Positions 26,912-41,747 of a stretch of DNA of 44,212 nucleotides are shown one piece after another. Under the pieces are notes generated by a model, which was not told the DNA's origin, searched no databases, and worked only from the letters and a program-made list of their open reading frames with translations. The stretch is from contig LLKB01000007.1 of assembly GCA_001414325.1 (NCBI GenBank), positions 147,120-191,331 on the forward strand, given 5' to 3'. Source of the stretch: Butyribacter intestini. GTDB lineage: Bacteria; Bacillota; Clostridia; Lachnospirales; Lachnospiraceae. How positions within the stretch are numbered: position 1 is the stretch's first letter; the number at the start of each line of letters is the position of its first letter. The position numbers were made by a program, and so were the translations under genes.

Positions 26912-27346
26912 TTAATTCGTGCTTATATTATAATCCATTATTGTTTTTAAGAGATAATTATTCATTTTTTCAAGGGGAATAGATAGTTTCATGTTAATGT
27001 CGTTGTCTGCCAGAAGTGCAACAGCAAAAAGATTTGCTTCAAATTCAATATTAGTCATAACATTAGAACTTGTCGTGGCAAAATAATTTATGCACTGTTC
27101 ATGTAATAACGCATGACCTAGTTCATGTGCACATAATATTTTTTTAGCTTTTTCACTGTATTTGTTATTGATTGATATTGTAGTTGGGTATCCTGGCATT
27201 TTAATAGTATGTGCAGTAAAATCTTTTACGCACGAATCTGTATGTATTACTGAAATACCAAGTCGTGTGGCTATTTCGTATGGGTCATTGATTTTCCAAT
27301 TTTTCTTGATTGACCTAGCCATTTCAATTATATCCTGTGCTTTCAT
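26912..27346 (-). CDS. ImmA/IrrE-family metallopeptidase
   Basis: 144 residues, start supported by GGGGGA. The zinc motif HELGHALLHE (HExxH) lies at about residues 74-83, with a downstream Glu in IEFEANLFAVALL as third ligand. Family members cleave or remove XRE-type repressors in mobile elements, for example ImmA in ICEBs1. No XRE repressor is adjacent, so its target is not in the immediate locus. It marks the left end of the accessory island and is divergent from the truncated ftsZ copy. Confidence 0.85.
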   Translation of the reverse strand: MKAQDIIEMARSIKKNWKINDPYEIATRLGISVIHTDSCVKDFTAHTIKMPGYPTTISINNKYSEKAKKILCAHELGHALLHEQCINYFATTSSNVMTNIEFEANLFAVALLADNDINMKLSIPLEKMNNYLLKTIMDYNISTN

Positions 27347-27389: not shown

Positions 27390-27962
27390 TTTGAGAATAA
27401 GCCACGAATGGTGGTGGCACAGGGAGGAATAAATAAACTGAGGGAAAATGTTGATACGCTGTTGGTTATTCCTAATGAAAAGCTTCTTTCTATTTCGGAA
27501 AAGTCCCTCACATTATGTGATGCGTTTGAATTGGCGGACTCTGTATTGAAAGATACAATTCGTGGAATTTCAAATATTGTTTATAATTGTGGAAATATTA
27601 ATATTGATTATAACGATGTTAAAACAACCTTGGAAAATAAGGGAACAGGTCATTTTGGAATAGGAACTGTTGAACGTGACGGGTCAATTATAGAAGCAGT
27701 AAAACAGGCGGTAAACTGTCCGTTGCTGGAGACAGATATTGCAGGAGAAGAAGTAAACATTATATGGGGAACAGTGTCAGAAGAAGAGAGTGATAAAATT
27801 GTTGTATCACTTTTTGCAACAGGTATGCCGGAAAAGGAAGTAAGACATACGGCATTAGGAGAGCACATGGATAATCCGAACCGTAACAATATCGCACCTA
27901 AAAGAGATGATACGGAAGTTATACAGATACCGCCTTTTTTAAAAAGACATTCAATCAGATAA
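27390..27962 (+). pseudogene. N-terminally deleted second FtsZ
   Basis: From 27390 the frame encodes the C-terminal half of FtsZ: FENKPRM, VDTLLVIPNEKLL, GISNIVYNCGNINIDYNDVK, GTGHFGIGT, PLLETDIAGEEVNIIWG and VSLFATGMPEKEV. It ends with a canonical FtsZ tail peptide IQIPPFLKRHSIR. The GTPase half with the GGGTGTG loop is missing; upstream of 27390 the frame runs into unrelated sequence opposite the ImmA gene. ATG 27408 has no ribosome site. A full FtsZ has about 370 residues, here ~190 remain. It is likely a paralogue truncated by the event that placed the ImmA gene beside it. Confidence 0.8.
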
Positions 27963-28251
27963 AAGAGAGGGAAAATAGACGGAAAGCTGCTCTGTTACTG
28001 TTTGTATATTAAGTATAAATAGTAGAATTTTGAATATTTTAATATTGTCAAAGAAGCAGCAGAACTGATTGCAAATATAAAGTTGATACAAATTTTCTCA
28101 TTGAAACAAAATGCCTGTTAGAATATAATGTGAAATATAATACTTTGTCAAGTTATAGTAATGAAAGTAAAGAAGATATAATAAACATAATCTGTCAGCT
28201 TGGCATAAAATTGAAGTTGTATAATTAACAAATAAACTGTGGAGGATGAAA
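27963..28251 (+). other. Gap with coding-like debris before hsdM
   Basis: No intact gene. In shifted frames there are short coding-like runs, for example NIVKEAAELIANIK near 28041 and LEYNVKYNTLSSYSNESKED up to a stop before 28230. This suggests a decayed small gene that I cannot identify. GGAGG at 28241-28245 is the hsdM ribosome site. Confidence 0.3.
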
Positions 28252-29727
28252 ATGATAACAGGTGAACTTAAGAATAAAATAGATAAAATATGGGAGATAT
28301 TTTGGACGGGTGGTATTACAAATCCGCTTGATGTTATTGAGCAATTTACATATCTGTTGTTTATAAAGCAGTTGGATGATGTAGAGACAACTAAGGAAAA
28401 TGAGGCAAATTTTCTGGGATTTGAATATGAGTCCATGTTTCCGGGGGATTGCCAGAAATACAGGTGGAGCAAGTTTAAAAATTTAGGCTCTGCCGATGAA
28501 ATGTATGACCTTGTGTTGAACGGTGTATTTCCGTTTATTAAAAATCTGCATCAGGATGGCGATTCGGCATATTCTAAATATATGGGTGATGCAATATTCA
28601 AGATACCGACGGCGGCAATGCTTTCAAAAATCGTTGATGGAATTGACAATCTCGGAATTGGTGACGAAAAAGATACCGACACTGACTCAAAGGGAGATTT
28701 ATATGAGTATCTTTTGTCAAAAGTTGCAACGGCAGGAACTAACGGACAGTTTAGAACTCCGCGTCATATAATTAAGATGATGGTGGAATTAGTACAGCCA
28801 AATCCGGATGATGTGATAATCGACCCGGCAATGGGTTCAGCAGGATTTTTGATAGAAGCACAGGAGTACCTGCGAAAGTATCATGAGGAGTCATTTTATG
28901 ATGAAGCATTTAAGGAACATTTTGCTAATCATATGTTTTATGGAAATGACATGGATAGAACAATGCTCCGCATCGGAGCGATGAATATGCTTCTTCACGG
29001 AGTGGACAATCCTAATATTTCTTATAGGGATAGTTTATCCGAGCAAAATAAGGATGTTGAAAAGTATTCACTTGTACTGGCAAATCCACCATTTAAGGGA
29101 AGTTTGGATTATGAAGCTGTTTCGGCAGATTTGTTAAAGGTAACAAAAACAAAGAAAACAGAGTTATTATTTTTGGCATTGTTTTTGAGAATACTAAAAA
29201 AGGGCGGACGGGCAGCCGTTATCGTGCCGGATGGAGTGTTGTTTGGCAGCAGTAAAGCACATAAACAGATAAGAAAAGAAATTATAGAAAATAATAAACT
29301 GGATGCAGTTATCTCTATGCCAAGCGGTGTGTTTAAGCCATATGCAGGAGTGTCAACTGCGATATTGATATTTACAAAGACCGGTTCGGGCGGAACAGAC
29401 AAAGTCTGGTTTTATGATATGAAAGCCGATGGTTACAGTCTTGACGATAAGAGACAGGAAGTGAGCGAAAATGACATTCCGGATATAATTGACAGATTTA
29501 AAAATCTTGAAGGGGAAACAGAGAGGGAGAGAACTGAGCAAAGTTTTATGGTCGATTTTGACGAAATAAAAGCTAATGGATATGACCTTTCCATCAATAA
29601 GTATAAGGAAATAGTATATGAACCGGTTGAATATGAGCCGACGGATGTGATTTTTGGGAAAATTGAAAAGATAGAGAGTGAAATTCAGAAAGAAATGTCA
29701 GAATTGAAAAAGTTGTTAGAGTTGTGA
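28252..29727 (+). CDS. hsdM: Type I restriction-modification system, DNA methyltransferase subunit
   Basis: 491 residues from the second ATG (28252), spaced properly from GGAGG; ATG 28246 is too close. N-terminal HsdM_N helical domain (MITGELKNKIDKIWEIFW). The N6-adenine methylase domain carries motif I DPAMGSAGFLIEA (191-203) and the catalytic NPPF (278-281). It methylates adenine in the bipartite target chosen by HsdS and is needed for both protection and cleavage. It heads the locus, with hsdS at 30588 and hsdR at 35060. The order is interrupted by remnants and accessory genes. Confidence 0.95.
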   Translation: MITGELKNKIDKIWEIFWTGGITNPLDVIEQFTYLLFIKQLDDVETTKENEANFLGFEYESMFPGDCQKYRWSKFKNLGSADEMYDLVLNGVFPFIKNLHQDGDSAYSKYMGDAIFKIPTAAMLSKIVDGIDNLGIGDEKDTDTDSKGDLYEYLLSKVATAGTNGQFRTPRHIIKMMVELVQPNPDDVIIDPAMGSAGFLIEAQEYLRKYHEESFYDEAFKEHFANHMFYGNDMDRTMLRIGAMNMLLHGVDNPNISYRDSLSEQNKDVEKYSLVLANPPFKGSLDYEAVSADLLKVTKTKKTELLFLALFLRILKKGGRAAVIVPDGVLFGSSKAHKQIRKEIIENNKLDAVISMPSGVFKPYAGVSTAILIFTKTGSGGTDKVWFYDMKADGYSLDDKRQEVSENDIPDIIDRFKNLEGETERERTEQSFMVDFDEIKANGYDLSINKYKEIVYEPVEYEPTDVIFGKIEKIESEIQKEMSELKKLLEL

Positions 29728-29743
29728 TGGAGGGGGGACGAAT

Positions 29744-29915
29744 ATGGACAAAGACCCATTTAGGGAATATACAAATATGCAGGACAGATAAGAGATTACA
29801 ATGTTACAAAAAAGAATGGGTACTTGATGGTGCAACTGTTCAAAAAGGTATTCACGAAACTACTGAGTAACTGGAATTGTTTCTTAGAGATTTATTGTTG
29901 AATGAAAAAATAAAC
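29744..29915 (+). pseudogene. Shrunken Fic-family gene remnant
   Basis: Three short pieces of a Fic protein are recognisable in order. MDKDPFREYT after a GGAGGGG site is the start. AGQIRDYNVTKK then, after a one-base frameshift in an A-run, WVLDGATV is the middle. QKGIHETTE, a stop, then LELFLRDLLLNEK is the C-terminus. Between pieces most of the protein is deleted, including the HPFxxGNGR AMPylation motif. Intact Fic genes of this subtype commonly sit in type I R-M operons of related bacteria (my recollection). The gene is dead, but its ribosome site and reading direction still sit between hsdM and the next gene. Confidence 0.65.
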
Positions 29916-29944
29916 TTAATAATCGAAATTTGGAGGTAAAAAAC

Positions 29945-30493
29945 ATGAGGAAACTCGATAATTTTATTGACATGATGACCGGACACTTTAATAACAAAGA
30001 GCAATTTGATAAGATGCAGAAAGAAGGTAAAATATATCCTTATGCAGAACACATTAATACAATCTGTAATGGAAAAATTTTGAACCTTCCTAAAGATTTT
30101 AATGGTAAATTTATTGTTGAGGAAAGCTACTATGAGACAAATGGGAAACGCCATGCTTCCCCGCATCTTTTCCTTATTACAGAGAGGGAAGATGGAATTG
30201 TACTGTCTTCTTATGAAATACCTGAAGGAGAGGATAAGAGTACATTTTCATATGGTTCTATGAAAAATGTTGATTACACTGAATTGAAAAAATCCGAAAA
30301 ATTTACTCCTGCACTCTATCATGAAAAGGATGGAATCTGGGAAGGAGGCAGTATAAGCCAGTTTACTCCGGTAATGATGTTTAAGCTATGGGAAAAGTTT
30401 TCCGATAGCTGCCTGGAAGTATCTGAAAGCATGGAAATTAACGGAAAAAGAACTTTTGGATATGATGAACCAATTATTTATAAGCGAGCGTAA
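29945..30493 (+). CDS. Conserved hypothetical protein in the R-M operon
   Basis: 182 residues from the ATG at 29945, preceded by GGAGG. Soluble, no signal peptide. It looks like an up-and-down beta protein: KFIVEESYYETNGK, ASPHLFLITEREDG, VLSSYEIPEGEDK, RTFGYDEPIIYKR. The pattern is reminiscent of CpeT/lipocalin-like barrels, but I cannot assign it. It lies between hsdM and hsdS in the same direction. It may be a neutral passenger, or modulate the R-M enzyme. Confidence 0.6.
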   Translation: MRKLDNFIDMMTGHFNNKEQFDKMQKEGKIYPYAEHINTICNGKILNLPKDFNGKFIVEESYYETNGKRHASPHLFLITEREDGIVLSSYEIPEGEDKSTFSYGSMKNVDYTELKKSEKFTPALYHEKDGIWEGGSISQFTPVMMFKLWEKFSDSCLEVSESMEINGKRTFGYDEPIIYKRA

Positions 30494-30607
30494 AGCGAGG
30501 GATGCTTCTTGACTGAAAGTCAAGGAGATGAGGTATAGAAAGGCTGAATGATTTGATAAATTCGGATTTGTGAGGAGGATGGAAAAAGTGAGATTGACAG
30601 ATATATG
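30485..30607 (+). repeat. hsdS upstream direct repeat, copy 1
   Basis: About 123 bp shared with 33861-33982, from CGAGCGTAAAGCGAGGGATG through the hsdS ribosome site to the first hsdS codons (ending AGATATATG). A TTGACT/AGTCAA inverted pair lies within it. Same orientation as copy 2. Confidence 0.85.
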
Positions 30608-31715
30608 TGATTTTCAAGGTGGTTCACAGCCGCCAAAAGATGAGTGGTTATTTGAAAAGCAAGAAGGATATATTCGTATGCTTCAAATACGAGACTTTAC
30701 TCAGAGTGAAAAGGTGGTTCCGGAATATGTAAAGATAAGTAAGAGTACAAAGATATGTCAAGCAGATGACATTTTAATAGCAAGATATGGTGCATCAATT
30801 GGAAAAATATTGACAGGACTATCCGGGGCGTATAATGTAGCAATAATGCGTGCAATTCCCGATACACATATGCTTCAAAAAAAATATTTATACTATTATT
30901 TGAAATCTCCGTATTTTCAAACTGCAATATTAAATGTTGGTTCAAGAGCTGCACAGGCAGGATTTAATAAAGAAGACTTATCTAAGTTAGAAATTAAATG
31001 TCCTTTATTGTCAGAACAAGATAGTATTATAGATATATTACAAAAGGTTGAGTCTATTATTGGTAAAAGAAAAAAAGAACTTATATTTTTAGACGAATTG
31101 GTGAAAGCCCGATTTGTCGAGATGTTTGGAGATGTAAATATTAATGATAAAAATTGGAATTGTGAGCTATTAGGAGAACTTTGTACTATCGTTAGAGGTG
31201 GATCACCAAGACCAATAGAGCAATTCCTAGGTGGAAATGTTCCTTGGATTAAGATTGGTGATGCAACATATGGGGATAGTATTTATTTAAATTCTACAAA
31301 GGAACATATTATTGAAGAGGGGGTAAAAAAGAGCAGATTTGTAAAGGCAGGGAGTCTAATATTTGCAAATTGTGGAGTGTCTTTAGGATTTGCGAGAATT
31401 ATCACTTTTGATGGATGCATTCATGATGGATGGCTTGCAATGGAAGATATTGATGAGAGGCTAGATAAAGTATTTTTATTGCAAGCGTTAAACCAAATGA
31501 CAGAGCATTTTAGGGCAATAGCTCCAGTTGGAACTCAGCCTAATTTAAACACAGCAATAATGAAAAAATATAAACAAGTAATACCGCCCATTGAATTGCA
31601 AAGAAAATTTATTAGATTTCTAGAACAGATAGACAAATCAAAAGTTGCAATTCAAAAGTCATTAGATGAGACACAGATTTTGTTTGACTCATTGATGCAG
31701 AAATATTTTGGGTGA
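30588..31715 (+). CDS. hsdS: Type I restriction-modification specificity subunit
   Basis: 375 residues. AGGAGG at 30573-30578 favours the GTG at 30588; ATG 30579 or GTG 30570 are less well spaced. It has two target recognition domains: TRD1 about 1-150 (VRLTDICDFQGGSQPP) and TRD2 about 190-345 (LLGELCTIVRGGSPRP). They are separated by the conserved coiled region with FLDELVKARFVEMFGD, and the C-terminal conserved helix is QIDKSKVAIQKSLDET. It sets the bipartite DNA target for HsdM and HsdR. Two segments are repeated in the silent copy at 33861-34655, allowing TRD2 replacement by recombination. Confidence 0.93.
   Translation: MRLTDICDFQGGSQPPKDEWLFEKQEGYIRMLQIRDFTQSEKVVPEYVKISKSTKICQADDILIARYGASIGKILTGLSGAYNVAIMRAIPDTHMLQKKYLYYYLKSPYFQTAILNVGSRAAQAGFNKEDLSKLEIKCPLLSEQDSIIDILQKVESIIGKRKKELIFLDELVKARFVEMFGDVNINDKNWNCELLGELCTIVRGGSPRPIEQFLGGNVPWIKIGDATYGDSIYLNSTKEHIIEEGVKKSRFVKAGSLIFANCGVSLGFARIITFDGCIHDGWLAMEDIDERLDKVFLLQALNQMTEHFRAIAPVGTQPNLNTAIMKKYKQVIPPIELQRKFIRFLEQIDKSKVAIQKSLDETQILFDSLMQKYFG
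31083..31137 (+). repeat. hsdS central conserved region repeat, copy 1
   Basis: About 55 bp encoding FLDELVKARFVEMFGDV, nearly identical to 33984-34038 (one mismatch seen in the core, TTTGGA/TTTGGG). It is a likely crossover site for swapping TRD2. A further 21-bp identity (31626-31646 and 34545-34565) lies at the other end of TRD2. Confidence 0.8.
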
Positions 31716-31738
31716 AAAATTGAAAGGAAACAGAATTT

Positions 31739-32218
31739 ATGATTTTATATCATGGAAGTAATGTGCAGGTAAGTATGCCTAAAATACTTGTTACTAATAG
31801 GATGCTTGACTTTGGTGCCGGTTTTTATACAACATCTAATAGACAGCAGGCTGTTAAATGGGCGAAAACACAGGCTATTCGACGAAGAAAAGGGAAGCCG
31901 ATTGTTTCTATGTATGATTTTGATGAAGAAAAACTGGACGGAATATCTGTTTGTAGATTTGAATCGGCTGATAAAGAGTGGTTAAATTTTGTTGCTGATA
32001 ATCGTAAAGGAAAGTATGTTGGTGAAAAATATGACTTGGTAATAGGACCGGTTGCAAATGATAATACTATGCCTGTTATAAGTAATTATATGTCTGGAAT
32101 AATTGATGAAAAAACAGCATTGATTTTGTTAAAACCTCAAAAGCTTTCAGACCAATATGCTTTTTTAACAGAAAAAGGAATTTCAATATTAAGATTTTTG
32201 GGTGGTGAGAATGTATGA
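31739..32218 (+). CDS. DUF3990 protein (ADP-ribosyltransferase-like, putative toxin)
   Basis: 159 residues. The start LYHGSNVQV, the core DFGAGFYTTSNRQQAVKWA, and YDLVIGPVANDNT match my recollection of DUF3990, whose fold and YHGS / GxGFYTT motifs resemble ADP-ribosyltransferases. Such proteins are found next to DUF3791 proteins in toxin-antitoxin-like pairs. The stop overlaps the next ATG by four bases (ATGA), so production of the two is coupled. It is inside the segment flanked by hsdS repeats, where a toxin-antitoxin pair would select against loss. Toxin activity is inferred, not shown. Confidence 0.75.
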   Translation: MILYHGSNVQVSMPKILVTNRMLDFGAGFYTTSNRQQAVKWAKTQAIRRRKGKPIVSMYDFDEEKLDGISVCRFESADKEWLNFVADNRKGKYVGEKYDLVIGPVANDNTMPVISNYMSGIIDEKTALILLKPQKLSDQYAFLTEKGISILRFLGGENV

Positions 32219-32472
32219 CAAAAAGGACAGAACCATCAATTCTTCAAAATTTCGATACGGAAATTGCGGAGTTGATAGCAAAAAATCGTGGAATTTCCAT
32301 AATGGACGCTCTTAGGATATTTCTTGCATCTAAAACGCATGAAATGTTAGAGAATGACGAAATGAAATTGTGGTATTTTAGTCCGTTGGCGGTTTTTGAT
32401 ATGTGGGAAAATGAAGAAGCAACAGGAGATCCGGGAAATTCTTTATATTTGCGAGGTGATGAGATTGAGTAA
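32215..32472 (+). CDS. DUF3791-like small protein, putative antitoxin 1
   Basis: 85 residues. ATGA overlap with the DUF3990 gene. Helical N-terminus (ILQNFDTEIAELIAKNRGIS, MDALRIFLASKTHEMLE) and an acidic C-terminus (WYFSPLAVFDMWENEEATGD). DUF3990/DUF3791 sets often have two such small helical proteins. Its likely role is binding and neutralising the upstream protein. Confidence 0.6.
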   Translation: MTKRTEPSILQNFDTEIAELIAKNRGISIMDALRIFLASKTHEMLENDEMKLWYFSPLAVFDMWENEEATGDPGNSLYLRGDEIE

Positions 32473-32674
32473 AGAATTTAGATTTTTTACATTTTTAATT
32501 GAAAGCTATGCAAGGGAAAAAAATATGTCGGCATCAGATGTTTTAAAAATATTAGATGAAAAAAATCTTACCGATTTTATTTTTAATATGTATGAAATAT
32601 ATCATGTAGAAGCCATAGAAAACGCATATATGGACATTGACAGCCTTATCAAAACAGGAAAAACAGCATGGTAA
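32459..32674 (+). CDS. DUF3791 protein, putative antitoxin 2
   Basis: 71 residues from the ATG at 32459, which follows GAGGTG within the end of the upstream gene (14-base overlap). Sequence FLIESYAREKNMSASDVLKI, then FNMYEIYHVEAIENAYMDID, is typical of DUF3791. It completes a tightly coupled three-gene unit with the DUF3990 gene. After it, 150 bases without a gene lead to the recombinase. Confidence 0.7.
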   Translation: MRLSKEFRFFTFLIESYAREKNMSASDVLKILDEKNLTDFIFNMYEIYHVEAIENAYMDIDSLIKTGKTAW

Positions 32675-32823
32675 CTATGATAAAATTCGGTTAATTAATA
32701 TGTGGGCATAATATAATTTTGAATTTTTATTACGAATTTATAAAGCAAGAATTTTTTCTTGCAATTTATTGCTATTGCAAATGCAGGTGTAGGATGTTGG
32801 TATCTTTGAAAGGAGATATTAAC

Positions 32824-33792
32824 ATGGAAGAAAAAATAGTATTAGTATTAAATGAAATGTCAGAGTATTTAACAGTAGAACAGATGAAAAAACTGCAGGA
32901 AGTAATAGTGAAAACATTTGCAGAAAATGAAGCACCTAAAACAGAAATATCAAATGATGAGTTTTTAAAAATGTTTCTTGATGCAAAGAGGATAGAGGGA
33001 TGTTCAGACCGAACTATTAAATATTATAGAGTCACGATAGAGCATTTGTTAAAAAATGTGGTAAGTCCTATCAGAAAAATAACAACGGAAATGATGAGGG
33101 CATATCTTGTTGATTATCAAAAAATAAATAATTGCGGAAAAACGACGGTAGATAATATACGAAGAAATATTTCAAGTTTCTTTTCATGGTTGGAAGAAGA
33201 GGATTATATTTTAAAAAGTCCGATGCGGAGAATACATAAAATTAAAACTCAAAAAACAGTAAAAAACATTATCTCGGATGAAGAAATTGAGAAATTGCGT
33301 GATAATTGCAAAAATATCCGTGATACGGCAATGATTGATTTGCTGTATTCTACCGGGATAAGGGTAGGCGAGCTTGTAAAATTGAATATTGAGGATATTG
33401 ATTTTTCGGAGAGAGAATGTGTTGTTTTCGGAAAGGGAGATAAGGAAAGACGGGTTTATTTTGATGCAAAGTCAAAAATACATTTGAAAAATTATATAGA
33501 AAGCCGCAAAGATAACAATCCGGCTTTGTTTGTAACTTTAAATGCACCATATGACAGACTAAAGATAAGCGGAGTCGAAATAAGAATACGGGAATTGGGG
33601 AGAATGTTAAATTTAGAAAAAGTTCATCCACATAAATTCAGAAGAACAATGGCAACGAGAGCGATAGATAAAGGGATGCCGATAGAGCAGGTGCAAAAAA
33701 TACTTGGACATTCTCAGATAGACACAACAATGCAATATGCAATCGTAAATCAAAATAATGTAAAGGCATCTCATAGGAAATATATAGCTTAA
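32824..33792 (+). CDS. Tyrosine recombinase, probably for hsdS rearrangement
   Basis: 322 residues, start at 32824 after AAAGGAG. The N-terminal SAM-like core-binding domain is at ~43-130. The catalytic domain has Arg180 (TGIRVGELVKL), Lys204 (FGKGDKERRV), His270 and Arg273 (HPHKFRRT), His296 (GHSQIDTT) and Tyr305 (MQYAIV). All family residues are present, so it should be active. Recombinases of this type between hsdS copies mediate specificity switching in several Firmicutes and Bacteroidetes systems (for example the PsrA/CreX class). Repeats here are direct, so excision or replacement rather than inversion is expected. It has no excisionase neighbour, which also fits a dedicated invertase-like role. 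Confidence 0.9.
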   Translation: MEEKIVLVLNEMSEYLTVEQMKKLQEVIVKTFAENEAPKTEISNDEFLKMFLDAKRIEGCSDRTIKYYRVTIEHLLKNVVSPIRKITTEMMRAYLVDYQKINNCGKTTVDNIRRNISSFFSWLEEEDYILKSPMRRIHKIKTQKTVKNIISDEEIEKLRDNCKNIRDTAMIDLLYSTGIRVGELVKLNIEDIDFSERECVVFGKGDKERRVYFDAKSKIHLKNYIESRKDNNPALFVTLNAPYDRLKISGVEIRIRELGRMLNLEKVHPHKFRRTMATRAIDKGMPIEQVQKILGHSQIDTTMQYAIVNQNNVKASHRKYIA

Positions 33793-33860
33793 ACAGATTT
33801 TAGCAAAGCGAAAAGATTTATAAATTCATCTTCAATGACAAGAGTTTGCTTCGGATTGAC

Positions 33861-33982
33861 CGAGCGTAAAGCGAGGGATGCTTCTTGACTGCAAGTCAAG
33901 AAGATGGGGTATAGAAATGCTGAAAACTCGGTAACTTCGGATTTGTGAGGAGGATGGAAAAAGTGAGATTGACAGATATATG
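33861..33982 (+). repeat. hsdS upstream direct repeat, copy 2
   Basis: Second copy of 30485-30607. It keeps the hsdS ribosome site and the codons for VRLTDI, then meets an in-frame TGA at 33981-33983, created by the junction with the central conserved region. Confidence 0.85.
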
Positions 33983-34655
33983 AATATTTTTAGACGAATT
34001 GGTGAAAGCCCGATTTGTCGAGATGTTTGGGGATGTAAGCATAGGTGATTATAGGTATGAAACTAGAAAACTTGGAGATGTTGCGAATATTGGCTCAAGC
34101 CATAGAGTGTTTACTACAGAGTTTGTTGAAAGTGGAATTCCGTTTTATAGAGGTAAAGAAATAGCAGAGTTAGCAAAGGGGACAAAGCCAACTAATTTAT
34201 ATTACATATCAGTGGAACACTACAATAGACTTACAAATGATGATACAAAACCGCAAATAGGTGATTTATTGATGCCGTCAATTTGCAATAAAGGTCAGGT
34301 TTGGATGGTAGATACAACTGAACCATTTTATTACAAAGATGGTCGAGTGCTTTGTATATCGCCTGATAGAAATATATTTAATACAAAATATCTAGAGTAT
34401 TTTATGAAAGCAAAAACATTAGTGGAATATCCAAAACTTGGTTCTGGTTCAACTTTTGCGGAATTTAAGATTTTTTTATTAAAAGATATTGATATATTAA
34501 TACCGCCTAGAAATATACAAGATGAATTTGCCGACTTCGTCCATCAGATAGACAAATCAAAAGTTAATTATTACTATAAAAACAGAAAAGACGGTTTTCC
34601 ACCATTATTGTTTATATATAGTGTGACAACAATAATTAATCTATCAGACTACTAA
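33963..34655 (+). pseudogene. Silent hsdS copy lacking TRD1 (alternative TRD2 cassette)
   Basis: The GTG at 33963 begins VRLTDI and stops at TGA 33981. From 33984 the frame of the central conserved region resumes (FLDELVKARFVEMFGDV), followed by a TRD2 different from that of hsdS (LGDVANIGSSHRVFTTEFVE ... GDLLMPSICNKGQVWMVD). The C-terminal helix begins (QIDKSKV) and is then replaced by unrelated residues to a stop at 34655. No ribosome site precedes the remaining frame. It is not translated as a full HsdS but can donate its TRD2 by recombination through the shared conserved segments at both ends. Confidence 0.8.
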
Positions 34656-34751
34656 AACAATATCGAAATGCAGTTGATTTCCCAAACCACCTTGTTTATA
34701 ATAATATCAAGACAAAAATTTTCAGTATGCTTTACAGAGGATGTGAGTGTT

Positions 34752-34985
34752 ATGTGTAATCTGAGTTTAGGAATAGAGGAAAGAGCTGAGGCGAGAGGAG
34801 AGGCGAGAGGAGAGTCGATAGGAGAAGCCAGAGGTAAACTAATCGGAGAAAAGAAAAGCAGTGAAAAGATTATTATGAATATGTATAATAACAAATTTAC
34901 ATTAGAGCAAATATCACTTGCAACTCAAAAAAGTATTCACGAAATTAAGGAGATAATAAAACAGAAAAACTCGGCAGTGGTATAA
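34752..34985 (+). pseudogene. Rpn-family nuclease C-terminal fragment
   Basis: 77 residues from ATG 34752; the frame is open from 34668 and no convincing ribosome site is present. The sequence (IEERAEARGEARGESIGEAR, then TLEQISLATQKSIHEIKEII) is the typical charged repeat tail of Rpn/YhgA-like nucleases. It is the same type of tail as in the gene at 1-627. The nuclease domain is absent. It sits between the silent hsdS copy and hsdR as debris of an earlier insertion. Confidence 0.6.
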
Positions 34986-35059
34986 AATCATATAAATAAG
35001 ACTTCATTTACATTAGTTAAATTACAATAATGTACTAAAGCTGTCAGGGGAGGGTGACT

Positions 35060-38000
35060 ATGGCAACAAATTTTGATTATTTATTGGAAAAAGAATTGTT
35101 TGGGGAGTTTGCCGAGCAGGCGGTTGAGGCGGAGAAAGCTATAGCTATATCACCTGCTACCTGTGCGATATTGTCAAGGAGAGCACTTGAGCTTGCTGTC
35201 AGATTCGTTTATTCTTATGATTATGATTTGAAACTGCCATATAGAGATAATGTCTCAAGTTTGATTCATGAGCAGACTTTCAGGGATATTATTGAGCCGG
35301 GATTGTTTGGAAAGTTAAAGTATGTAATAAAGTTAGGCAATATTGCCGTTCATACCAACAACAGCATTAAGCGTGATGATGCATTGTTGTCACTCAGGAA
35401 TCTTTTTTGTTTTTGCGACTGGATTGATTATAGTTATTCTAAAGAATATCACAATAGGACATTTAAAGAAAATATTGTTCCGACAGGCAAAGAGGAGTCG
35501 GTAAAGGCTTCAAAATTAAAAGAATTATATGAGTCCTTGTCGGGCAAGGATAAAAAGCTTGATGAAGTTTTAAAAGAAAATGAAAATCTCCGTATTGAGA
35601 TGGCAAAACTGCGTGAGGAAAATATAAAGAACAGGACTTATCAGGTTGACGAGATAAGCGAAGCTAAGACACGCAAGTATTACATAGATTTAGAATTAAA
35701 AGAAGCAGGATGGATTATCGGAAAGAATGTGACTGAGGAAGAAGAAGTTACAGGTATGCCAAATGCAAGCGGAATAGGTTATGTAGACTATGTGCTTTGG
35801 GGGAAAGATAATTTGCCATTGGCTGTGGTAGAAGCCAAGAAATCAACTGTTAATCCTAAAGTTGGCAGTCATCAGGCTAAGTTGTATGCGGATTGTTTGC
35901 AAAATAAATATAACCAAAGACCGTTGATTTTTACTACAAACGGTTTTGAATTTTACTACAAAAATGATTATATGAATTATGCTGAGAGAGAAGTTTCGGG
36001 ATTTTTCACTCAGGATGAATTACAGTTAGAGATTGACAGAAGAAAATTAAGAACACCTTTGGTTAATGTGGAAATCAATGATAAGATTACTGACAGACCA
36101 TATCAGAAAGAAGCAGTTCTGGCTGTTTGTGATGCTATTGAAAAAAGACATAGAAAAATGCTGATAGTACAGGCTACAGGTTCGGGAAAAACAAGAGTCA
36201 GTATCAGCATTGTTGATGTGCTTAGAAAACATAATTATATTAAAAACATTCTTTTCCTTGCAGACAGAACGGCACTTGTGCGACAGGCTAAGAAGAATTT
36301 TTCAAATTTACTGCCTGATTTGACCTGTTGCAATCTGCTGGATTATAAAGACGACCCGGAAAATTCTAAAATGATTTTTTCTACATATGCGACAATGATG
36401 AATATGATAGATGAAAAGAAAAATAAGTTCGGAGAAAAATTGTTTACACCGGGACATTTTGACCTGATAATCATTGATGAAAGCCATCGAAGTATATATA
36501 AAAAATATCAGGATATTTTCTTTTATTTTGATGCTATGCTGATTGGCATGACAGCGACTCCAAAAACAGATGTTGATAAGGATACATATGCGATTTTTGA
36601 CCTTGAGCGTGGCAACCCTACTTTTGCATATGAACTTGAAACAGCAGTTGAAGAGGGCTATCTTGTAAATTATTCCACGATTGAAACTAATTCTAAATTT
36701 ATTGACAATGGTATTTGCTATAAGGATTTGTCTGAGGAAGAAAAAGAAGAATTTGAAGATACTTTTGACGATGACCCGGTGATTGAAGATACGGTTTTGA
36801 GTTCAGAACTTAACACATGGGTGTATAACACAGACACTATAGACAGCGTTTTATCGGTTTTGCTTGACAAAGGAATTAAAGTTGAGGGAGGAGACAAGCT
36901 CGGCAAAACGATTATTTTTGCTAAGAATAATCGCCATGCGAAAGCTATTGTTGACAGATTTTTGGCGAGATTTCCCGAATACGGTGGGGATTTTATCAAG
37001 GAAATTGACTATAGCATCAAGTATGTTGATTCGCTTATTGACGATTTCAGTGATAAAAATAAAATGCCGCAGATAGCAGTTTCAGTGGATATGCTTGACA
37101 CGGGTATTGATATTCCTGAGATTACAAATCTTGTTTTCTTTAAAAAGGTTAAAAGTTATGCTAAATTCTGGCAGATGGTAGGTCGTGGAACAAGACTTTG
37201 CAAGGATTTGTTTGGCGAGGGACTTGATAAAGAAAAGTTTTTGATTTTTGACTGGTGCAGAAATTTTGAATATTTTCGTGCAAATAAGAACGGTACGGAG
37301 TCAGGAATACAGGAGTCGCTTGCCGAAAAAATATTTAATGTGAAAGTGCAGATTACAAGAGAATTGGAAAAACCGGAAAATGAAAAGTATTCAAAGTACA
37401 GAAATGATCTTGTTTCAGGTATGCACCATATAGTGATGGATATGAATGATGACAGTTTTCGTGTTAAAAGGCATTTACGGTATGTTGAAAAGTATCGAAA
37501 TCTTAGTAATTGGCAGTCATTAGAAGCTAATAGCGTGTCAGAGTTAAAAAATCATGTAGCACCGTTGGTTATGCCTGAAAAGAGCGATGAGTTAGTCAGA
37601 AGATTTGATTATCTTATGCACACTATAAATCTCGGCATATTGCAGAGGAAAAATATTTCCAAGCCAATAGATACGGTTGTAAAAACGGCAGTTTTATTGT
37701 CGAAGAAATATAATATTCCTGCAGTTCAGGAACAGAGAGATGTTATTGAAAAAGTACAGAAAGAGGAATTTTGGGAAAATGCCACGATAATTGAAATCGA
37801 TTATGTCAGGACATCGATTCGCAATCTTCTTCAATATATAGATAAGATAAAAAGAAATATTTATTATACGAATTTTACTGATAAAATCAGCGAACCGGTA
37901 GAGGGACAGCCGATAAGTGCAGCAAATAATCTGAAAAATTATAAAAAACAGGTTGAGTTTTATCTTAAGCAGCATCAGGACACGCTTGCCGTACACAAAC

Positions 38001-38401
38001 TCCGCAATAATGAGAAATTAACCCGTACGGATTTAGATACACTTGAACATATATTGTGGACGGAGCTTGGAAGTAAAGCCGATTATGAAAATGAGTACGG
38101 AGATACACCGGTAGGCAAAATGGTAAGGCGTATCGTGGGTCTTGACCGTGAAGCCGTAAATAAGGCATTTAATGAGTTTTTAAACGAGGAAAGACTGAAT
38201 GTAAATCAGTACCGTTTTGTAAGACTTATAATTGATTATATTGTGAAGAATGGAAATATTGAGGATAATAAGGTGCTTACGGAAGAACCTTTCAGAAGTG
38301 CAGGCAGTATCACTTCGCTGTTTAAAAATGATATGGTAACCGCAAAGCAGATAATGATGGTGATTAAACAGATACAGGACAACTCTGTTGAAGTTGCATA
38401 A
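35060..38401 (+). CDS. hsdR: Type I restriction enzyme, restriction/translocase subunit
   Basis: 1113 residues from ATG 35060, with GGGGAGGG upstream. Residues 1-~125 are a DUF4145-like helical domain; a coiled coil follows (~150-190). The HSDR_N PD-(D/E)xK nuclease shows Asp243 (YVDYVLWG) and Glu258-x-Lys260 (VVEAKKS). The SF2 translocase has Walker A ATGSGKT (372-378), IIDESHRS, and GMTATP. A later motif reads QMVGRGTRLCKD. The C-terminal ~350 residues are helical and would contact HsdM. It cuts unmethylated DNA after translocation and needs HsdM and HsdS. Its gene is complete, so the locus should make a working enzyme. Confidence 0.94.
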   Translation: MATNFDYLLEKELFGEFAEQAVEAEKAIAISPATCAILSRRALELAVRFVYSYDYDLKLPYRDNVSSLIHEQTFRDIIEPGLFGKLKYVIKLGNIAVHTNNSIKRDDALLSLRNLFCFCDWIDYSYSKEYHNRTFKENIVPTGKEESVKASKLKELYESLSGKDKKLDEVLKENENLRIEMAKLREENIKNRTYQVDEISEAKTRKYYIDLELKEAGWIIGKNVTEEEEVTGMPNASGIGYVDYVLWGKDNLPLAVVEAKKSTVNPKVGSHQAKLYADCLQNKYNQRPLIFTTNGFEFYYKNDYMNYAEREVSGFFTQDELQLEIDRRKLRTPLVNVEINDKITDRPYQKEAVLAVCDAIEKRHRKMLIVQATGSGKTRVSISIVDVLRKHNYIKNILFLADRTALVRQAKKNFSNLLPDLTCCNLLDYKDDPENSKMIFSTYATMMNMIDEKKNKFGEKLFTPGHFDLIIIDESHRSIYKKYQDIFFYFDAMLIGMTATPKTDVDKDTYAIFDLERGNPTFAYELETAVEEGYLVNYSTIETNSKFIDNGICYKDLSEEEKEEFEDTFDDDPVIEDTVLSSELNTWVYNTDTIDSVLSVLLDKGIKVEGGDKLGKTIIFAKNNRHAKAIVDRFLARFPEYGGDFIKEIDYSIKYVDSLIDDFSDKNKMPQIAVSVDMLDTGIDIPEITNLVFFKKVKSYAKFWQMVGRGTRLCKDLFGEGLDKEKFLIFDWCRNFEYFRANKNGTESGIQESLAEKIFNVKVQITRELEKPENEKYSKYRNDLVSGMHHIVMDMNDDSFRVKRHLRYVEKYRNLSNWQSLEANSVSELKNHVAPLVMPEKSDELVRRFDYLMHTINLGILQRKNISKPIDTVVKTAVLLSKKYNIPAVQEQRDVIEKVQKEEFWENATIIEIDYVRTSIRNLLQYIDKIKRNIYYTNFTDKISEPVEGQPISAANNLKNYKKQVEFYLKQHQDTLAVHKLRNNEKLTRTDLDTLEHILWTELGSKADYENEYGDTPVGKMVRRIVGLDREAVNKAFNEFLNEERLNVNQYRFVRLIIDYIVKNGNIEDNKVLTEEPFRSAGSITSLFKNDMVTAKQIMMVIKQIQDNSVEVA

Positions 38402-38621
38402 AAAATTAATTATTATATAAATTTTGTATCAACCAAAGGTTGAATGATTTTCTATTTTTGCGTTATGGTATTTTGAACTATATAAATATATACTTTTAAC
38501 ATAAACTCTGCAGGGTTACATATACAATAGGTAATTGTGAAACTTACTATATGTGCAAAAGTTAATTGCAGTGATGGTTTCGCAATGGCACAGTTGCATT
38601 TATGATGAAAGGAAAGTATAT

Positions 38622-39440
38622 ATGACAGTTGTAAATATAGGAGAGAAAATAAGAAAACTTAGAAAAGAAAAGGGGATTTCACAGGACACCCTTGCACAGT
38701 ATCTTGGAGTGTCATTTCAGGCGGTCAGTAAGTGGGAGAATGGACTTGCCATGCCTGATGTTACAATGTTTCCGGCAATCGCATTCTTTTTTGAAATTTC
38801 GATTGATGAATTGTTTGATTATGACAGAATGAAATTAGAAGAAAAAGTTATCACAGTCTGCCATAAGGCTTATGAAATCAGAGATGACAATCCCAAAAAG
38901 GCTGAAAAAATCCTTAGAGAGGGCTTGAAAAAGTTTCCGGGAAATGTGTTGATATTAAATAATTTGTTATATCCAATGATGATTCAGGAAGATAGAGAAG
39001 AAGAAATAATAGAGATTGCGGAAGTTTTAACGGAGACACCTAATGTTGAACTTGAAGTGAAGCTGGATTCATTTAGGATTATGGCAGAGACATATCATAA
39101 ACTTGGTGATTTGAGTGCGTGCAGGAAGGTTATAGAAAAAATACCGGAATTATATTTTTCGGCTACGGAATTAAAGGCAAGGCTGCTCGAAGGACAGGAA
39201 AGTCTTGAAAATGCGTCATTGCAACAGCAGGTATCAGGTTATACTCTTATAGAAATGCAGATGATAATGGCTAAGTTTTATGAAGATGCCGGAGATAAAG
39301 AGAAAGCAAAGAAAAAATATTCCACGGTTGCCAAAATAATAGATGCTTTTGAGGGAGACACTGAACCATTAGAGGGAATAAAATTAAGTGAGCAGGATGC
39401 CGTGAGACGATTTCGCAGAAAAGCTGAAAATGTGATTTAA
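38622..39440 (+). CDS. XRE-family regulator with TPR-like domain
   Basis: 272 residues from ATG 38622, after GAAAGG. Residues ~5-60 are a helix-turn-helix of the Cro/CI class (IGEKIRKLRKEKGISQDTLA, VSFQAVSKWENGLAMPD). The rest is a helical repeat region (NPKKAEKILREGLKKFPGN, AETYHKLGDLSACRKVIEKI, FYEDAGDKEKAKKKYSTVA) like TPR. Combination proteins of this kind are common peptide- or stress-sensing regulators. The target is unknown. The 220-base gap upstream shows no clear promoter but contains a hairpin CAACC/GGTTG after hsdR. Confidence 0.85.
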   Translation: MTVVNIGEKIRKLRKEKGISQDTLAQYLGVSFQAVSKWENGLAMPDVTMFPAIAFFFEISIDELFDYDRMKLEEKVITVCHKAYEIRDDNPKKAEKILREGLKKFPGNVLILNNLLYPMMIQEDREEEIIEIAEVLTETPNVELEVKLDSFRIMAETYHKLGDLSACRKVIEKIPELYFSATELKARLLEGQESLENASLQQQVSGYTLIEMQMIMAKFYEDAGDKEKAKKKYSTVAKIIDAFEGDTEPLEGIKLSEQDAVRRFRRKAENVI

Positions 39441-39611: not shown

Positions 39612-41747
39612 TTACTGTCCCATTTCATAAACTGCAATAGATGTAACAGTAGGAGCATTTCCAAATGTAAGATTAAGTACAGGGTTGCTTCCTTTCAATG
39701 ATGTAATCATAGATTCAGGAAGGATAAAACCTTTTCCAGCCCATGAACTGTTTGGATAGTTCTGTCTGTCTGTTGAAGAACCGTCTGCCTTATCTGTTGT
39801 TGATAACATAAGCTCTCCGGTGGCATCTTCCGAACTGTCCTCAAAGGTGACTTTTATGCAAGGTTTTTTAAACTGATTCCAGTCAAGCTGTAAGAATGTC
39901 TGATAACCCCAGCTGTTAAACTGAATCTTAGAATCATCTGTACATGATTCTTTTTGAATGAATTTTGATTCATCGGTGCTTGTCACTTTGTTTCCGTCTA
40001 ATCCGATATTGCTACCATCGTTCTTTTTCCATTTTCCTGTCCATGACCAAACTGGAGTTGCATCGGCAGGAACATCAACTGGTGTAATTTCTACAACAGG
40101 ATCATCTGAACGTGCTGTTATGTCTTTTGTGTTTCCATTAGAGCCTGTAAGGTTATTGAAAAATTCTGCAATATCTTTATAAAGCATAATGCATTTTTCG
40201 CGGTCAAAATAGCTGCCTGGTGTTTCCCAGAGTACCGGTAAAAGACCACGCTCTTTTGCAAGTGTTATAACATCGTTAAGGCAGGTTGTGACACCGACCT
40301 GTTTTGGATTACATACACCACATTCACCAATAATGACTCCATATCCTGCATCTGTAAATTTCTTTAATGAATCAAATGTTTCTTCTGTATGCTTCTTATC
40401 TTGTTCAGTATAGGTACCGTGTGCATCGTCACCACAGAAGCCCCATGGATCATAGTAGTGAACCGATACACTCAGTTTGCTTGTACCATTGGCATCAGTG
40501 TCTTTAGGCATCTTGTAGCTGTCATCTAAGGTGCTTTTAATATTAGTATTGTATCCGGCCAAAAGCAAATGTCTGTTTTCATTGTTTCCGCCTGATTTGC
40601 GGACAATATCAACAAAATCCTGATTTAATTTATTAGTCAGAGTATAACATTCAGCGACAGTTAAGTTTCCGGTAACACCATTTACTGCTGTGTTGAAACC
40701 TAAGTTATAATCGTTGATATGGTTGCCGAATTCTTCGTTCGCAGATTCAAAAATAAGATGATCTGAATAGCCTTTGAAGCGTTCTGAAATCTGCTCCCAG
40801 TATCTTTCATATCTCTTCAAAGCTTCGGCACGGGTGGTCTCATCAGCAATTTTATTGCCGTTTGCATCTTCAGTGCAGGCACCGAATTTACCCCACCATC
40901 CATAATCAAAGTGGTCATTGATAATAACATACATACCATCGTTAAGTGCATAGTTTACAATTTCTTCTACACGACCAAGCATTTTTTCGTTAATTGTATA
41001 GGTTGTATCGTTTTCTTTAACCATGCTGGTCCATGCAACAGGGACACGAATGGTGTTAAAACCATACGAATGTATAGCATCAATATATTTCTGTGTGGTA
41101 ACGGGTGCACCCCATGCTGTTTCATAATCAGTAGCATTACTGAAATTGTCTTTTTCGTTGGCAGCTTTTGTTGCTTCCATTGTATTTCCGAGATTTATAC
41201 CGATACCCATCTCTTTTTTGATAAGCTCCTGAGATGAAAGATTTGTACGCATTTTGCCGTTATCTTTTACTGTCATTTTGTCGGAAATACCACCTGCAAT
41301 TGAAACTTCTCTTGCTTCACCTATATTAGAAGTGTCGTCTCCTTTGTAATTGACAGGAGATGCTGTAGGTGTTGCAGCAGATTTTTTGATAACCTTAACC
41401 TTACAAGTTAATGTCTTTGTTATGTACTTCTTTGATGAAACAGGAAGGTAGCTTATCTTACAGGTGACAGTTGTTGAACCTGCTTTTTTTCCGGTTACCA
41501 CTCCCTTTTTAGTTACAGAAGCAATACTTTTTTTCTTGGAAGTCCAAGTAGTGGTTTTGACTTTTTTTACATTTTTTTTCACAACACTTAATTTTACATT
41601 TTTTCCGACTGTGACTGATACGGATGTTTTCTTTAAACTTACACTCGCTTTCTTTGCAGCTAAAGCCGGTATTGAGTTTGTGCCGGTTATAACCAGTGCT
41701 AATGCCATAGTTGAAGCCAGGCATTTTTTAAAAAATTTTTTTCTCAT
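39612..41747 (-). CDS. Secreted GH5 glycoside hydrolase (cellulase-type) with Big2 domain
   Basis: 711 residues. Signal peptide 1-~31 (VITGTNSIPALAAKK). Residues ~35-121 are a bacterial Ig-like (Big2) domain rich in Lys (SVTVGKNVKLSVVKK ... KKSIASVTKKGVVTGKKAG), which may attach the enzyme to the surface. The GH5 barrel spans ~165-535: IGINLGNTMEA, FNTIRVPVAWTSM, acid/base Glu338 in FESANEEFGN, VHYYDPWGF and nucleophile Glu475 in VIIGECGV. The last ~150 residues form a beta-rich, carbohydrate-binding-like domain (WSWTGKWKK ... QTFLQLDWNQFKKPCIKVTF). It should cut beta-1,4-glucans outside the cell. The start follows GTGAGGATCTTAT. Confidence 0.9.
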   Translation of the reverse strand: MRKKFFKKCLASTMALALVITGTNSIPALAAKKASVSLKKTSVSVTVGKNVKLSVVKKNVKKVKTTTWTSKKKSIASVTKKGVVTGKKAGSTTVTCKISYLPVSSKKYITKTLTCKVKVIKKSAATPTASPVNYKGDDTSNIGEAREVSIAGGISDKMTVKDNGKMRTNLSSQELIKKEMGIGINLGNTMEATKAANEKDNFSNATDYETAWGAPVTTQKYIDAIHSYGFNTIRVPVAWTSMVKENDTTYTINEKMLGRVEEIVNYALNDGMYVIINDHFDYGWWGKFGACTEDANGNKIADETTRAEALKRYERYWEQISERFKGYSDHLIFESANEEFGNHINDYNLGFNTAVNGVTGNLTVAECYTLTNKLNQDFVDIVRKSGGNNENRHLLLAGYNTNIKSTLDDSYKMPKDTDANGTSKLSVSVHYYDPWGFCGDDAHGTYTEQDKKHTEETFDSLKKFTDAGYGVIIGECGVCNPKQVGVTTCLNDVITLAKERGLLPVLWETPGSYFDREKCIMLYKDIAEFFNNLTGSNGNTKDITARSDDPVVEITPVDVPADATPVWSWTGKWKKNDGSNIGLDGNKVTSTDESKFIQKESCTDDSKIQFNSWGYQTFLQLDWNQFKKPCIKVTFEDSSEDATGELMLSTTDKADGSSTDRQNYPNSSWAGKGFILPESMITSLKGSNPVLNLTFGNAPTVTSIAVYEMGQ

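Follow-up and report, generated by a model that had tools for sequence, protein, structure and literature searches.

Genes of the locus

The DNA analysed here, called the window throughout, is a stretch of 44,212 nucleotides (nt) from Butyribacter intestini (assembly GCA_001414325.1, contig LLKB01000007.1, here C7 of genome G000, 147120-191331), and all positions count from its first letter. The subject is a type I restriction-modification (R-M) locus in which a full-length and a partial copy of the specificity gene hsdS, joined by direct repeats, stand on either side of a gene for a tyrosine recombinase. The main genes are listed below, where TRD stands for target recognition domain, ORF for open reading frame and aa for amino acids.

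28246-29727, + strand: hsdM, type I methyltransferase subunit, 493 aa (Pfam N6_Mtase, E 2e-72; HsdM_N, E 2e-15)
~30579-31715, + strand: hsdS, full-length, with TRD1, TRD2 and C-terminal helix, 378 aa from ATG 30579 (Methylase_S in two stretches, E 7e-32)
31739-32218, + strand: DUF3990 protein (PF13151, E 1e-52)
32215-32472, + strand: ORF of 85 aa between the DUF3990 and DUF3791 genes, no family match
32411-32674, + strand: DUF3791 protein (PF12668, E 4e-19)
32824-33792, + strand: tyrosine recombinase, TvrR-like, 322 aa (Phage_integrase, E 4e-37; NF040815 above cut-off)
33999-34655, + strand: silent partial hsdS, with centre and TRD2', cut off after the tail site (Methylase_S, E 1e-8)
35054-38401, + strand: hsdR, restriction subunit, 1115 aa (ResIII, E 8e-40; EcoEI_R_C, E 2e-21)

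All genes lay on the + strand in the order hsdM, an ORF of 182 aa, hsdS, the DUF3990 gene, the 85-aa ORF, the DUF3791 gene, the recombinase, the partial hsdS, an ORF of 105 aa and hsdR. A GTG at 30588 is a possible alternative start of hsdS. Searches of Pfam and NCBIfam gave no match for the 182-aa and 85-aa ORFs and none above cut-off for the 105-aa ORF, and an Rfam search of 27500-39000 returned no match. Pfam identified HsdM, an HsdS with two TRDs and an HsdR with helicase domains, which places the locus among type I R-M systems. The complete hsdM-hsdS-hsdR set and the intact tyrosine recombinase that an earlier note on this DNA had described were both borne out, the former by open frames with the expected Pfam families and the latter by its family matches and intact conserved residues.

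Direct repeats and the silent hsdS copy

Three kinds of direct repeat joined hsdS to the downstream partial hsdS, with the intact recombinase between them. The start repeat and the joint that follows it are located as follows:

30485-30607, + strand: start repeat, upstream copy, made up of a dispersed hairpin (30485-30530), the hsdS leader and the first codons; direct repeat of 33861-33982
33861-33982, + strand: start repeat, downstream copy; direct repeat of 30485-30607
33981-33983, + strand: in-frame TGA at the place of the missing TRD1', after the ninth codon from ATG 33954

The start repeat aligned in two parts, one of 64 nt (30485-30548 and 33861-33924, 94% identity) and one of 51 nt (30557-30607 and 33932-33982, 98%). 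The central repeat measured 55 nt (31083-31137 and 33984-34038, 98%) and the tail repeat 21 nt (31626-31646 and 34545-34565, 100%). Given these lengths and identities of 94-100%, the pairs are not due to chance. The coordinates of the 123-, 55- and 21-bp segments reported in the earlier note proved exact and all three are direct; the first 46 nt of the 123-nt segment are the dispersed hairpin, so that only its remainder is specific to hsdS. This hairpin (CTTCTTGACT...AGTCAAG; 30485-30530 and 33861-33906) has at least four more copies elsewhere in the genome, on contigs C5, C1 (two) and C6. No inverted repeat between hsdS and the silent copy passed the stricter repeat filter. A laxer filter gave 33 weak inverted pairs, and the sole pair joining both copies (23 nt, 83%) was the palindrome of the dispersed hairpin.

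The earlier note's silent hsdS copy with a different TRD2 was also seen, and its description can be refined. The copy lacks TRD1 entirely, since the start segment is followed by one base and then by the centre, and its similarity to HsdS ends just past the tail repeat, without a C-terminal helix. Its TRD2' differs from TRD2, and the window therefore has a 2+1 arrangement of TRDs. The reading frame formed by joining TRD1, TRD2' and the C-terminal end is open over 384 codons.

Predicted recombination sites

Each repeat holds a short site of approximately CAAA-N6-TTTG, and the sites fall into three classes (start, centre and tail) with different six-base centres:

30557-30570, + strand: predicted site, start class, TAAA-TTCGGA-TTTG; the class precedes hsdS and follows the recombinase in many loci
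33932-33945, + strand: predicted site, start class, downstream, TAAC-TTCGGA-TTTG; centre the same as in the upstream copy
31103-31116, + strand: predicted site, central class, GAAA-GCCCGA-TTTG; synonymous-site constraint in 109 motif-selected copies, with controls
34004-34017, + strand: predicted site, central class, downstream; constraint and centre agreement
31634-31647, + strand: predicted site, tail class, CAAA-TCAAAA-GTTG; codon constraint, consensus matches and centre agreement
34553-34566, + strand: predicted site, tail class, downstream; centre agreement with the upstream copy

Related loci were collected by scanning genome contigs with the recombinase, and the best 80 of at least 485 confirmed relatives were retained. 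Together with the window and two loci chosen for their HsdM (L055 and L058), they form a comparison set of 83. The commonest centres across loci were TTCGGA or TTGAGA in the start class, GCCCGA in the centre class and TCAAAA in the tail class. The start-class site lies directly past the recombinase stop codon, and also before hsdS, in many loci.

The centre and tail bases are nearly constant despite the freedom that the genetic code allows. For the centre class, 109 copies were chosen by amino-acid motif alone and the codons for IKARFVEMF were counted; alanine was encoded by GCC in 98%, arginine by CGA in 95%, phenylalanine by TTT in 100% and glutamate by GAG in 90%, whereas in the TRD2 part of the same genes GCC made up 9% of alanine codons, CGA 12%, TTT 78% and GAG 33%. 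The tail codons for VDKSK were similarly skewed relative to the TRD2 part (GTC 96% vs 8%, GAC 99% vs 16%, TCA 95% vs 29%), in figures inflated by the choice of these sites through their nucleotide consensus. A tail list picked by motif (n = 120, codons untallied) had the same codons in HsdS, and DKSK in HsdR or elsewhere used others. Searches of both strands of the 83 records gave 127 consensus matches for the centre class and 114 for the tail class, compared with 0 and 3 after one mononucleotide shuffle per record.

The centre-site pattern GATTTGTNGNGATG occurred four times in the whole genome (G000), two of these being the present locus, and a genome-wide array of cassettes was rejected on this count, which speaks for the centre class only; the pattern does not fit the start sites of the window. 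The possibility that the core of the tail site is inverted (GACAAATC vs GATTTGTC) was also dropped, as the CAAA-N6-TTTG dyad lets all classes be read in one orientation. Behind the start site, an element GTGCTACCGATAGACGGTTAGCC was common to L074 and L102 just after the recombinase, and its beginning was found in L086; it is perhaps a structured RNA of another cassette.

Agreement of site centres within loci

The four middle bases were equal in both copies of a site in 24 of 28 loci for the start class, 54 of 54 for the centre class and 46 of 46 for the tail class. When partners were shuffled among loci, the mean numbers of agreements were 9.4, 42.9 and 33.4, respectively, and 0 of 20,000 shuffles reached the observed values. 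Rare centres were matched as well, namely CCAG (three loci), GCCG (two), CTCG, CAAG (three), TGAA (two), CCAA and CTAA. The block of full identity extended from -1 to +7 in the centre class and from -4 to +4 in the tail class; in the start class, agreement was 0.89-0.96 at the four middle bases and full only from +4 to +9. Around the centre class, within-locus agreement was lower (0.48 at -11, 0.63 at -8 and 0.76 at +14). Strand exchange by tyrosine recombinases needs identity over six to eight bases, and rare centres that stay matched amid changed neighbours would be the pattern expected of it.

Conserved geometry and movement of cassettes

An upstream hsdM and a downstream hsdR on the same strand were present in 50 of the 83 loci. 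Among these 50, sites lay in direct orientation across the recombinase in 45 for the centre class, 40 for the tail class and 23 for the start class (the last at no more than three mismatches), and the association of recombinase and centre site is to be read with the fact that the loci were found through the recombinase. The five without a centre pair were L058, L097 (masked with N), L116, L130 and L135, and L128 had an extra inverted centre copy. A centre site soon after the recombinase, without TRD1' as in the window, was also seen in L106 (3744) and L140 (2448).

Cassettes were compared as pairs of TRDs from different loci with at least 60% identity over 110 residues. Nearly all homologous pairs (249 of 252) kept their half of HsdS; 121 of the 249 lay on opposite sides of the recombinase and 128 on the same side. 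The nearest kin of the window's TRD1 are downstream cassettes in L083 (81%) and L138 (76%), and L107, from Lachnospiraceae, is reciprocal to the window, with the TRD2 type downstream (87%) and the TRD2' type upstream (79%). Two loci shared two cassettes at 60% in nine cases, and the swap was complete in two of these, half in five and absent in two. As far as sequences can tell, these comparisons show cassettes that keep their half and change side freely, a movement over evolution rather than within one culture.

The C-terminal helix, sought by regular expression, was present in 53 of 59 upstream tails and lacking in 49 of 52 downstream tails. Of the six upstream tails that the expression missed, four (L072, L134, L135 and L150) carry the end in a variant spelling visible by eye, and L108 and L131 do not; the downstream copies with a C-terminal end were L119 (with stops), L131 and L138.

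The recombinase and its family

Residues R181, K205, H271, R274, H297 and Y306 of the recombinase, which we take to be the catalytic set, were invariant in an alignment of 12 rows. In a tree of 131 rows built by a quick method, the window fell in a clade of 81 rows (support 99). Flanking repeats of the 81 recombinases with at least 63% identity were direct in 56, inverted in 3 (L108, L128 and L130), absent in 17 and, the stretch being too short, not judged in 5. At 50-63% identity they were direct in 17, inverted in 15, absent in 5 and not judged in 10. On these counts by identity class, direct repeats characterise the window's clade and not the whole family.

A paralogue outside the clade lies in the same genome (L053, 9766-11491 on contig C5 of G000), where hsdS parts and a recombinase of 59% identity accompany a 62-nt inverted repeat; the genome thus holds one inverting and one excising layout. 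A small gene starting MGKTATLN, presumably RelB-like, follows the recombinase in L141, L144 and L149 and also in L148. A phage origin was rejected, the exact 26-base centre site being unmatched in the viral_contigs set, which held 32 recombinase relatives of 38-72% identity, with 31 no higher than 61%.

Hairpin over the recombinase start codon

32794-32825, + strand: hairpin covering the recombinase start codon and its ribosome-binding region, 12 pairs, with covariation in relatives

In 25 loci selected from the 83 for this type of hairpin, five of the 12 stem pairs had changes on both sides and many pairs were G-U, and these double changes and G-U pairs speak for an RNA hairpin rather than a symmetric protein-binding site. 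A simple hairpin scan scored at least 8 in 35 of the 83 loci, and in 30 of the 83 none of 20 shuffles matched the score. The leader in the window, 148 nt long, has a folding energy of -31.1 kcal/mol (z -3.1) and holds further hairpins. The start-codon hairpin has no U-tract, and its probable effect is to damp recombinase output, likely at translation. A transcription attenuator is not claimed: an upstream hairpin with a T-run at -8 kcal/mol or better was found in 8 of 82 loci vs 1 of 82 shuffles, a small excess, and it is weak in the window (-5.2 kcal/mol).

Comparison with known systems

The kind of locus is already known from the pneumococcal tvr locus (SpnIV) with its recombinase TvrR, which is also treated in PMC4263131. 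Excision and reintegration between direct repeats of two types, with a circular intermediate, were shown experimentally in that locus (PMC6265443). The same source reports arrangements of 2+1, 3+1 and 2+2 TRDs in which N- and C-terminal TRDs keep their halves, and damping of the recombinase by a terminator-like hairpin and TvrT (PMC6265443). For pneumococcal 2+2 loci, expression of the upstream copy only has been published.

The window resembles tvr in its gene order in one orientation (hsdM, hsdS, small gene cluster, tyrosine recombinase, partial hsdS, hsdR), in several direct-repeat types with a shared core (here three classes sharing arms of about CAAA and TTTG), in its 2+1 arrangement with N- and C-terminal TRDs that hold their places (249 of 252 pairs here), and in a hairpin preceding the recombinase. 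It differs in having three site classes, one of them before the first TRD, compared with the two types described for tvr, where the TRD adjoining hsdM did not move. The slot of the Phd-Doc type TvrAT genes of tvr is taken here by DUF3990 and DUF3791 genes; DUF3990-like genes occupied it in 16 of 67 loci examined, the window included, and 29 of the 67 had no ATG-started ORF of at least 60 aa there. The hairpin lies over the start codon and lacks a U-tract, whereas the attenuator described for tvr is terminator-like, and the silent copy is without TRD1, which leads to predicted OFF states. What makes the window a variant of this known kind is its logic of three site classes, the hairpin at the start codon, DUF3990 in the slot and the prediction of ON and OFF states.

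For the recombinase, the comparison with tvr was made by way of a locus of tvr layout, L217. This locus (genome G526) was found when 395 genomes from the order of Lactobacillus were searched, of which 21 gave a match. Its recombinase, HsdM and HsdR are 57%, 67% and 46% identical to those of the window, its sites lie at the same codons and its repeats are direct. Its gene layout matches the published one of tvr down to a Fic/Doc gene; the window has DUF3990 and DUF3791 genes instead. Its start and centre sites share the centre TCCCGA, giving two classes, and an extra TRD gene lies beside hsdM.

Inverting type I loci (SpnIII/ivr/cod, and PsrA, PMC7096588) share with the window a tyrosine recombinase, hsdS cassettes and more than one hsdS copy, but they have inverted repeats and switch by inversion, whereas the repeats here are direct. 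A survey of switching type I systems searched inverted repeats, and the phrase "direct repeat" has 0 occurrences in its text (PMC7394358); direct-repeat switches would escape such a search. Among the matches listed in one open-access library, no paper on direct-repeat switching of this type outside pneumococcus was found, which is no proof of absence.

Proposed switching mechanism and alternatives

The explanation that best fits the anatomy of the locus and its relatives, and one that we hold to be probable, is a tvr-like specificity switch working by excision and reintegration. The recombinase would join sites of the same class flanking its own gene (start with start, centre with centre, tail with tail) and release a circle carrying the recombinase gene and all three site classes. 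Reinsertion of the circle at a different class would exchange TRD cassettes between the upstream hsdS, presumably the only copy expressed, and the silent store, and the class-specific centre would ensure that TRD1 and TRD2 cassettes each stay in the correct half and reading frame. A single excision would leave a truncated tail behind hsdM; a second step at another site class would be needed because simple excision leaves hsdS without its C-terminal end, which only reintegration would restore. The distribution of this end in the relatives, mostly upstream, fits such a model. We infer that the recombinase itself would catalyse these steps, at rates that the hairpin may lower.

If a site reacts only with sites of its own class, enumerating the moves leads to four arrangements and no more for a 2+2 locus. 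The window would likewise have four: TRD1-TRD2, TRD1-TRD2' and a pair in which TRD1 is absent. Excision at the centre sites with reinsertion at the tail site, or excision at the tail sites with reinsertion at the centre site, would produce the full-length TRD1-TRD2' gene and put TRD2 into the silent store. Recombination at the start sites would place a TRD1-less gene, halted by the in-frame TGA, behind hsdM. The window would thus have two ON specificities and two OFF states, the latter predicted because TRD1' is lost. The earlier note had derived excision of a circle and formation of TRD1-TRD2' from the direct geometry, and both are consistent with the anatomy and with the comparison with 82 further loci.

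We also lean, if only slightly, towards a wider interpretation in which this class of loci is a natural set of mutually exclusive sites, with one recombinase, shared CAAA...TTTG arms and three six-base centres that react only with themselves. Such a locus would move among four states and no others: each excised circle would retain the recombinase and be able to reinsert, the C-terminal end would be given back to the expressed copy, and no cassette would enter the wrong half; the loss of TRD1' in the window would have turned a dial of four specificities into two specificities and two OFF states, with the hairpin throttling the recombinase.

Several observations weigh against the proposed switch. 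The window was assembled in a single state, and with TRD1' lost the locus may be decaying. The start class is the least secure: at four mismatches it gave 172 matches vs 40 in shuffles of the 83 records, for which reason it was later counted at no more than three; the left arms of the window's own start sites (TAAA and TAAC) are imperfect; and start-site pairs were unlike in 4 of 28 loci (L081, L086, L088 and L096, of which L088 is apparently mis-registered). Tail agreement falls to 0.46 at +5, where the partial copy ends and an edge is expected, and the agreement of centres within loci could come partly from past duplication or shared descent. The hsdM and/or hsdR gene lay outside the examined stretch in 33 of the 83 loci. 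The recombinase does not cleanly divide direct from inverted layouts (17 vs 15 of 47 at 50-63% identity), and a five-row subclade (L141, L144, L145, L146 and L149; support 99) has no flanking repeats.

Some of these points would suit a locked or decaying locus, in which the silent copy is a remnant with TRD1' deleted and no switching takes place at present. The in-frame TGA at the joint agrees with this, as does a pneumococcal isolate that lacked full tail repeats and did not shuffle (PMC6265443). We consider it unlikely, since the recombinase frame and conserved residues are intact, all six sites are present with matched centres, the TRD2' frame is open and joins TRD1 and the C-terminal end in frame, and the 2+1 layout is among the tvr arrangements reported (PMC6265443). 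Exchange across the repeats by ordinary homologous recombination or by gene conversion, with the recombinase serving something else, is highly improbable: the longer repeats (51-64 nt) could permit some exchange, and in pneumococcus the long repeats are also acted on by an uncharacterised route that needs neither TvrR nor RecA (PMC6265443), but constraint and identity focus on about 9-14 bp rather than on the entire repeat, the tail repeat is 21 bp, and recombinase and centre sites occur together in 45 of 50 hsdM/hsdR loci, albeit recombinase-found ones. An inversion switch of the SpnIII/PsrA (ivr, cod) type is hardly credible: recombinases of inverting loci are kin and the 59% paralogue of the same genome sits beside an inverted repeat, but that paralogue is excluded from the window's clade (56 direct, 3 inverted), only the hairpin palindrome joins the two hsdS copies in inverted orientation even at the laxer filter, and inversion already conflicts with the assembled arrangement.

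If the excision switch is real, many gut Lachnospiraceae and some lactobacilli could change their methylation pattern by reversible excision, and phage resistance would perhaps be switched too. With the site rule (arms plus a class-specific centre in HsdS codons), such loci can be located by sequence and the alleles open to each of them predicted; the rule also gives a simple way to test how one recombinase might separate three reactions.

Neighbouring genes

An FtsZ gene fragment (27408-27959, + strand; TIGR00065 positions 152-265, E 1e-29, below the family cut-off) lacks most of the GTPase part and sits between hsdM and an upstream gene that we take to be pyruvate phosphate dikinase-like. 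It is adjoined by a gene for an IrrE/ImmA-like metallopeptidase (26912-27346, - strand; Peptidase_M78, E 2e-11). On the other side of the locus, a large secreted protein with Ig-like repeats (39612-41747, - strand) presumably resembles a GH5 cellulase.

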